Part shown: positions 46,501 through 59,249 of the stretch, in pieces
Numbering within the stretch: the first letter of the stretch is position 1
How the letters are laid out: each line of letters starts with the position of its first letter
Origin: Imbricaverruca yamaguchii
Lineage: Eukaryota; Arthropoda; Thecostraca; Neoverrucidae
Assembly (NCBI GenBank): GCA_034440575.1
Contig: JAOTOL010000875.1
Coordinates: 1-64,000, forward strand
DNA length: 64,000 nucleotides
Reading direction: 5' to 3'
Program-made: the position numbers and the translations under genes
Notes under the pieces: model-generated
The model's input: only the letters and a program-made list of their open reading frames with translations
What the model was told of the DNA's origin: nothing
Databases searched by the model: none

Positions 46501-49500
46501 GCACAGCCCAGCATCACCTGCAAACATATCAGCAATTGAAAAAAAACATCAATTGAAAGTCAGTCACGCCAGGTGTGTTTTATTTGCAAGTGCCCATTTA
46601 TTGGATATAATGATACATACCAATGGCAAATGTGGAGAAAAAGCCAAAACCTGACTGAAAGTGTAAGTAATTGTCCTGGTACGTGTTGTTTTCCAATATT
46701 TCCTAATCTGGACACACTGATGAACATAGGACAGGACGGTGGAAGCTAAGCTGCCGCTTAGCAGGCAGCTCGACAGCAATGAAAGTCTGAGAACGGCCGC
46801 CGCCATCGCGTTCTGCCACGTATTCAAACACCAAAGTCGCTGGATGTCCACTGCTGAGGGAAACACCTCGCATTAGAATTAGAGATGAGGAATAAACCAT
46901 AGAGATGTGGAACTGGATCGCGACTGTAAATGTCCCGATGACTTCGATTATTACCCCTGTTACCGTCGCATAACAATGACCCACTGTTATTTACTATGTG
47001 CCACTACATACAACATCGGCACTGAACGCGCCAGTTATTGTAAATAACCCCCTCCGAAGGAGACTACCAACGGTCCTGCTGCATAGCACAATGGTCAGTT
47101 GCCGTCTCGACAAATCTTGCACACATCAGCCGCCCGCGTGCGGTCGTTTTCTGCCAGCCGCCGCCACGTGCCCCAGAACCCACCCACCTGTTCCAGACCG
47201 GCCGAACCCACCCGGTCAGACTTTGGTGTCTGTTGTTGGGCCGCCGCCGGGCTGCCTCGGCACGTGCGCTGATGCTCCGGGCCACGTGACCGGGCCACGT
47301 GACCATAGCCGCCGGAGGTGGCTCAGCGGCGCGTCGTGTCATGCGTCAGTGAGAATACAGGATTCGAAGGTGAAGGTCTGTGACACCTGCCGCCCACCTG
47401 CTCCAGACCGGCCAAACCCGCCCACCCACCTGCTCCAGACCGGCCGAACTCGCCCACCCACCTGCTCCAGACCGGCCGAACCCACCCACCCACCTGCTCC
47501 AGACCGGCCGAACCCGACCACCTGCTCCAGACCGGCCGAACCCGCCCACCTGCTCCAGACCGGCCGAACCCACCCACCTGCTCCAGACCGGCCGAACCCG
47601 ACCACCTGCTCCAGACCGGCCGAACCCACCCACCTGCTCCAGACCGGCCGAACCCGACCACCTGCTCCAGACCGGCCGAACCCGACCACCTGCTCCAGAC
47701 CGGCCGAACCGACCCACCTGTTCCAGACCGGCCGAATCGCCCACATGGTTCAGGTGGTTGGTCATCAGCTGTTGCGGCGTTGCAGACGTGTCGCGCGCAA
47801 ACATCAGCGTGCTGAACAGCGGCGCCGTCTGGCGGGACGGCATGGCGCTCTCACACAGCACACAGCACAGCTCGCACCGGCAGAACGGCGCCAATGCCAA
47901 CACACAGCACGGCCAGCACGACACACCAACTGCGTTGGCACGGCAAACTCAGCAACATGTGCAGACCTTCCTGTTGTGCAGCAACTTGTGCAGACTGGCT
48001 GTTGATGACACAATTACCCTGAACTTGTTTGGCTTCTGCCAGGACGTGCAATAATTAGCGATGACTCCAAACCACCATCCACCTCGATTTCCCACTGGTA
48101 ACACAATCTACGTTCAGGCACGATGTTTTTGTGCAAGAAATTATGTTACACCGGCTACCAAAGTGGCTGTCAGGTGATTCAACATGTGCAACTGGCACCA
48201 CGGCAATCAAAACAAGGGAAATACGTGCACACTGCAAGCAATGAACTTCCGGGGGTCACTGCCCGTGCGGTGCTGAGACGCCTGGAGTCTGCTGTCAACA
48301 AGGGGACTTGACGCTCAATCCTGCTGTTAGATCAGTCGATCTCTTCAAAGCCGTTCCCCTTCTGCTACTGTGCCAGCCGTTTCCTCCATGTCACATACTT
48401 CCGAGTTCGGGCGTCAGGTTCAGTGCCAACATTCCCTTGGTAGAAGTTGGTCGCCTGCCGTCTTACGCACCTGGATGCCGTCCCTGTGCAGCTGGACTGC
48501 GGCGGCCAGCATGTGCAGCTTGACGGCCTCCATGCAGCGCAGTTCCAGGTCCGACTCGGAGTTCCAGATCTGTCGCAGCTCCCGGCCGGCGCTGCGCGAC
48601 GAGCCGAGATCCTCGCTCTGCACACCACAGCCCAGAAGTCAGCTCGGCTGCAGGGTGGTGCACCGAGGGAGCGGTTTCCCAGCACGAATGACAGCACCAG
48701 GGCAACATCAACAGGGCGTGATCTGGGAAAAAAAACTGGCCTTTATTCACGATTTGCGAAAAACAAACGATAAACACCCCACGTGGAATACATAGTTTTG
48801 ACTGAGGCTCAGATCCTAAGCGATCCAAATCCGTTCAATGTTTTTAAAAATTGGTGGTACTTTATTCCATCCGCCCTACCAAAGCTTTCCAAAAGTCAGC
48901 TCCTTACATTAGCCGACGCACGTGGGCCAGTACTCATCACAGCTAGTGAAGGTTCCCCACAAAACAAGCAGATACACACGAGTAGGTAATTACAACATGA
49001 ATTAAAGCTGCTCTCATACATATACCATAACTGAAATGGCGGCACTGATAGGGTCCAATGCTAACTTTTGAGTGCAGAAACATTGTGGGTGAGAAAACAA
49101 AATTACAAAGGAATACAATTATGTTGCAACGTCCTTACGCACACAGCACAGGAATGAAATGCATCACCGCTGGACTGACATTATCACTGGCCAGTTTGCA
49201 TCGTTACGGCCAGCGGGCTAGTTTGGCCCACCATGTGCCACAGACTGACCCTCGTGAGGTCGACCACTCACCAGCTGCGAGAGCGTGCTCAAACACGTCC
49301 TGATGCCGCTCCTGGCCGTGGTAACATCATACGGAAGCCGTGAGCCGAAACTCCACGACGTCACCCAGTCGCCGGCCGAGTCCAGGATGCTGCAGCACCT
49401 CGTGGTGCTCGGCGGCGGTAGACCTTTGGTCAGCAGCTGATAGAGGGCAGCACGTACTGCGCAGTAGTTGTCACCTCGCACGCGCTGGATGTACGTCAAG

Positions 49501-59249: not shown

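Follow-up and report, generated by a model that had tools for sequence, protein, structure and literature searches.

Minisatellites whose units straddle splice junctions in an OTULIN-family gene and other genes of a barnacle-like genome

Introduction

Several minisatellites in one gene of the 64,000-nucleotide stretch of DNA analysed here (the window) border on splice sites, which raises the question of whether splice junctions are themselves amplified into tandem arrays or whether arrays simply arise there by chance. A first-pass annotation described three such arrays as flush with splice sites, two of them as copies of the junction, and proposed a mechanism that amplifies junction sequence. 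Here we locate the exon ends with an independent protein, dissect the arrays, and compare the frequency of junction-spanning arrays at protein-kinase exons of the same genome with that expected from random seeding.

Results

Exon structure of the OTULIN-family gene

The gene is encoded on the minus strand. Pfam places its product in the OTULIN family (PF16218, E 3.7e-50), and a structure comparison matches it to solved chains of OTULIN and FAM105A. The closest named relative is not from amphioxus, which we reject as the host, but is the otulin-like protein P0001 of Pollicipes pollicipes (446 aa), which is 73% identical over 282 aa of exons 2-6. A tblastn search with P0001 gave seven exons running from 58772 to 37358: exon 1 (58594..58772, the part matched by P0001 from residue 37, with its last exonic base at 58594 taken from the junction position), exon 2 (55041..55163, with the acceptor CTGCAG ending at 55164 and the donor following 55041), exon 3 (51204..51429), exon 4 (49272..49529, also matched by PF16218), exon 5 (48471..48617), exon 6 (47718..47849, also matched by PF16218, with the acceptor set by inspection and the last exonic base at 47718) and exon 7 (37358..37531, the C-terminal part of the peptidase domain).

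In the window, exon 1 ends in ...SASRDGSLT and exon 2 starts with LALSRDQS..., while P0001 joins ...SASRQGSLT straight to LALSREQS..., which fits a phase-2 junction between the exon 1 donor AC/GTGAGT and the exon 2 acceptor CTGCAG/A (slash, splice site). Exon 6 ends in ...SAGLEQ, compared with ...SGGLEQ in P0001. Because the ends of exons 1 and 6 both match P0001, evidence external to the window confirms the two donor junctions; as for transcripts, P0001 shows only that a relative joins these exons. Residues 1-36 of P0001 found no convincing tblastn match within the window. CTGCAG stands immediately ahead of the P0001-matched part of exon 1, and this exon may not be the first. A hydrophobic open frame (58783-59240, minus strand) with a 21-bp repeat at 59093-59194 precedes the conserved part and could be either an N-terminal extension or an intron upstream of the CTGCAG acceptor. 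Elsewhere in the window, a 484-aa open frame (21824-23278, minus strand) resembles by eye a retrotransposon reverse transcriptase, and similar pieces occur at about 29359-32044. Genome duplication has been reported in barnacles (PMC11331182), and the OTULIN-family gene could on that account be a paralogue in Pollicipes itself.

Donor arrays of exons 1 and 6

Tandem Repeats Finder (TRF) reports a 23-bp array of 28.4 copies at the exon 1 donor (57959..58608, minus strand), running from the exon end into intron 1. Its unit consists of 15 exonic and 8 intronic bases, and the first unit (58608-58586) is the exon end itself. Compared with this first unit, the first 11 units carry 0 or 1 mismatches, the next 12 carry 1 or 2, and the 24th carries 7; GTGAGT is kept in 21 of the first 24. 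The exon 6 donor bears a 28/32-bp array of 12 units (47390..47744, minus strand; 28 bp and 12.3 copies according to TRF), in which each unit joins 19 exonic bases to 9 or 13 intronic ones; the first unit, 28 bp long (47736-47709), is of the 19 + 9 form. CAG/GTGG is kept in all 12. One further copy of this junction unit stands detached, about 180 bp past the array (47170..47206, minus strand). This copy and the true exon 6 junction both read GGAACAG, whereas the 11 inner units read GGAGCAG. The roughly 180 bp of non-repeat sequence between array and detached copy (window 47207-47389) is possibly a later insertion.

At both donors, therefore, the unit is a copy of the junction, part exon and part intron, as the first-pass annotation had proposed for these two arrays and as TRF and P0001 bear out. 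The copies also retain the splice signals. This is the structure already known from amphioxus as a mirage. The edge copies of the two arrays behave differently, since the first and detached copies of exon 6 diverge from the inner ones while the exon-side units of exon 1 are the most uniform. The regularity of the units beside exon 1, the degradation of the 24th, and the divergence of the exon 6 edge copies would be expected if the junctions were amplified in place with the edges escaping homogenisation.

Introner-like elements are near-identical, intron-sized copies present at many loci. Outside the window the exon 6 array gave only 66-75% matches to other loci, in a search that skips common words and is thus a limited test, and on this evidence it does not resemble such an element.

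Arrays beside exon 3 and within intron 1

A 35-bp array of 87.6 copies (51437..54505, minus strand, TRF) lies against the exon 3 acceptor. It does stop short of the exon, but at 7 nt ahead of the first exonic base and not about 10 bp before the AG as first described, so that it abuts the junction without demonstrably copying it. Shuffle tests gave no support to a unit that reaches across the acceptor: for one unit variant the score was reached in 568 and 801 of 20,000 shuffles with two shorter queries and in 6367 with the longest, and for two other variants in 7162 and 4670 of 20,000. An earlier free-end alignment was uninformative, its score being reached by 4140 of 5000 shuffles. In view of these tests and the 7-nt gap, we do not regard this array as a true acceptor mirage. 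P0038, a predicted protein in ENA that is 67% identical over 24% of the query, extends upstream of exon 3 without the 35-bp repeat pattern, hinting that the array may not be common to the relative that carries P0038.

Within intron 1, an 18-bp array of 89.2 copies (56013..57573, minus strand, TRF) touches no exon. Its sense-strand unit contains CTGACCACAG, which we take to resemble a branch point plus AG, and the array may be an orphaned acceptor array.

Similar arrays in other genes

Three tandem copies of CAGGTGAGT occurred 1453 times in the same genome (388 + 1065 overlapping matches), compared with 391 (174 + 217) for a backwards control. Among the matches listed there are three distinct arrays, one of which, on C66, fills most of the rows. 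Two of the three, L039 and L040, can be followed back to the side facing the exon, where each starts at a coding exon's donor. L039 is a 38-bp unit repeated 101 times beside an exon that resembles PI-PLC structures (E 4e-4), has no Pfam match, and presumably encodes PLCXD. L040 is a 45-bp unit repeated 3.1 times in a gene with a DM13 domain (Pfam E 3.1e-10). The third, L041, extends beyond the fetched stretch. Among 12 loci resembling the exon 6 array, one array (L044) likewise begins where an open frame ends at a donor, and Pfam gives no match for this frame; at the other 11 no mirage was established.

Together with the kinase exons described below, L039 and L040 demonstrate that the structure recurs in other genes of this genome. 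Loci chosen for their arrays have no bearing on how frequent mirages are. Across L039-L053 many unrelated minisatellites are close neighbours, and 5 kb often contains several of them, a density biased by the choice of these loci for arrays.

A survey of protein-kinase exons

In order to estimate how often arrays span exon ends, we surveyed one gene family in this genome (767 Mb, one assembly). A PF00069 profile search returned 136 exon matches (713 candidates, 132 scored). We dropped 18 rows. In 15 of them a single open frame contained the domain entirely or for the greater part (in one case from profile position 60 on), and the other three lay in one long frame on C1372. The 118 rows kept were merged into 107 stretches, and 60 of these, fetched in random order, contained 67 exon matches with 122 ends internal to the domain (59 donors and 63 acceptors), each placed from the domain match and splice motifs. 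Arrays made up 12,236 of the 70,753 noncoding flank bases (17%).

By script, arrays overlapped 11 of the 122 ends by at least 3 exonic bases and 9 of the 122 by at least 12. Inspection by eye, which was not blind, placed junction-spanning arrays at 10 of the 122 ends (95% interval 4-15%). Seven are at donors (L066, L080, L105, L106, two at L107, and L109 with only 3 exonic bases) and three at acceptors (L094, L099 and the degraded L083). Of the ends counted by script at the 3-base threshold, L058 and L081 were dropped as intronic and L070 as flush only, while the second L107 array and L083 were added. Outside the count stand L060 (flush), L054, L088 and L097 (near or unclear) and L059 (about 28 bp off). 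At L107 the unit contains the codons for HRDLK and then GTACGGAT, with GANLL supplied in phase by the following exon; codon phase likewise fits across the intron at L094.

Chance seeding compared with junction targeting

We compared these counts with a model in which one unit-sized seed per array is placed at random. Under random seeding, some 3-5% of exon ends would carry a spanning array, or about 4-6 cases in the survey. At TRF score 50 or 100 the expectation is 3.7-5.4 (simulated P 0.001 to 0.025), and the script's own count of 8-11 compares with 2.3-4.2 expected (P 0.0005-0.005). Score thresholds of 200 to 500 give ratios of 2.3 to 4.7, the upper ones being biased because the 550-bp flanks cut distant arrays short; across thresholds simulated P ranges from below 0.0001 to 0.025 before correction for GC content. 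GC weighting, with noisy weights from 29 arrays, raises the expectation 1.37-fold and leaves a Poisson P of 0.03-0.11 (0.02 at score at least 200). Overall, spanning arrays at the main thresholds outnumber the expectation 1.6- to 2.7-fold, with P about 0.001-0.1 depending on threshold and GC correction.

Active junctions, donors above all, could raise the rate of tandem duplication, for example through co-transcriptional R-loops or through donor-like G-rich motifs that seed slippage or recombination. We regard such targeting as possible but doubtful. The excess over random seeding favors it, as do the larger size of the spanning arrays (median 10.1 copies in 10 arrays versus 3.2 in 50 others, a difference helped by the cut flanks), the higher rate at donors and the surplus of tandem CAGGTGAGT over its control. 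However, the excess weakens after GC correction, donors and acceptors do not differ significantly (Fisher P 0.20), and the CAGGTGAGT matches overlap and come largely from one array. Array coverage also has no peak at exon ends, being 0.13 at 1-30 bp, about 0.20 at 120-330 bp and 0.13 at 510-540 bp. With arrays covering 17% of flanks and no such peak, some junction cases are expected from density alone. In the OTULIN-family gene itself, spanning arrays at 2 of 12 ends have a P of 0.05-0.10 if seeding is random and of 0.26 if the rate of the survey applies, values that are generous given that the gene was chosen for its arrays. The claim that the two donor arrays "cannot be chance placement" is thus not sustained. 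The survey excess, with its range of P, makes a mechanism that amplifies junction sequence conceivable without establishing it. The acceptor array is not demonstrably a junction copy, and placement beyond chance is only weakly supported.

Discussion

We think it rather probable that the arrays are mirages formed by neutral seeding and tolerance in a barnacle-like genome whose minisatellites turn over at a very high rate. By chance, a short duplication would span an exon end, and slippage or unequal exchange would then amplify the duplicated junction into the intron. The result would be tolerated since the original exon and splice site are kept in the exon-proximal copy, the further copies being intronic and spliced away. 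We infer both this mutational process and the use of the exon-proximal copy. A straddling duplication leaves that copy intact and is therefore one of the few harmless ways to amplify exonic sequence. Since the right site is transcribed first in a donor array and last in an acceptor array, donor arrays should be the better tolerated of the two under co-transcriptional splicing. The survey points toward donors as this asymmetry predicts, without significance. The spanning arrays exceed the random-seed expectation, and pure chance may be less than the whole story.

A stronger proposal is that minisatellites in this lineage arise preferentially at junctions, and at donors most of all, through a process linked to transcription or splicing, that amphioxus and barnacles have converged on junction amplification, and that about one exon end in twelve is affected. 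We put this forward only tentatively and think it the less likely account.

Selection could instead maintain the arrays, with decoy donors regulating splicing or providing in-frame exon extensions. The conservation of donor motifs in both arrays would fit this, as would the predicted read-through of exon 6, which is open to each of its 12 donors. Young arrays, however, retain such motifs without selection, use of a later exon 1 donor (donors 2-5) is predicted to bring an immediate in-frame TGA, and of the 11 inner donors of exon 6 just three are predicted to keep the frame (donors 4, 7 and 11, adding 84, 168 and 288 nt). We consider maintenance by selection very improbable. Least probable of all is an assembly artefact or misplacement of exon ends: the arrays are known from one assembly, and a draft amphioxus genome is reported to contain an aberrantly assembled mirage (PMC3087553), but P0001 agrees with the exon ends, the kinase cases L107 and L094 are in codon phase on both sides of their introns, units vary among themselves, and the pattern recurs on many contigs.

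Seeding by chance followed by tolerance thus remains our preferred account, and 10 of 122 exon ends provide enough cases to ask whether junctions seed minisatellites. The same cases could show whether the spliceosome always picks the copy nearest the exon and whether arrays contribute to changes in introns or exons. They are also a warning for gene predictors, as dozens of equal donors are possible in one intron.

Comparable structures have been described in other animals. Variable internal tandem repeats occur at exon-intron boundaries in human segmental duplications (PMC2812944). Like the arrays here they have minisatellite-length units of about 30 bp and alter gene structure at boundaries, but they have few copies (about 4 on average), lie in recent paralogues and are linked to alternative transcripts, whereas our arrays are long and known from DNA alone. 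Intronic minisatellites or repeats are reported for earthworm metallothionein (PMC12783039) and Sparus MSTN-2 (PMC3045353), with no junction-spanning unit found in the available portions of these papers; the corresponding portions of papers on amphioxus huntingtin (PMC2206037) and chicken MUC2 (PMC3549977) contain nothing on junction-spanning minisatellites. Among the titles and abstract openings listed in searches of open-licence papers, none reports such a minisatellite from an arthropod. The Rogers model, in which introns are gained when AG/GT sites are duplicated in tandem, is discussed in PMC3087553, and cases are given for Drosophila and potato (PMC2891723, PMC4974935). Both that process and the present arrays involve tandem copies bearing splice signals, but here the copies sit inside an existing intron.

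The closest parallel is the mirages of amphioxus, minisatellite-like duplications of intron/exon boundaries for which the globins BflGb6 and BflGb9 and Adh3 are cited (Ebner et al. 2010, PMC3087553), together with TnC and PGBD5 (PMC3902484). The amphioxus Adh precedent given in the first-pass annotation is therefore real (PMC3087553, PMC3902484), and mirages have so far been described from a handful of amphioxus genes (PMC3087553, PMC3902484). Ebner et al. called the mechanism unclear, suggested from Adh3 data and globin RT-PCR that mirages are spliced normally, described edge units that escape homogenisation, and proposed intron gain from mirages (PMC3087553). The arrays studied here share with amphioxus mirages a boundary-spanning unit, donor and acceptor types, and many copies with splice signals (PMC3087553). 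They differ in belonging to another phylum, in reaching about 100 copies (L039), and in their occurrence, observed at the sequence level, at some 8% of the exon ends surveyed.
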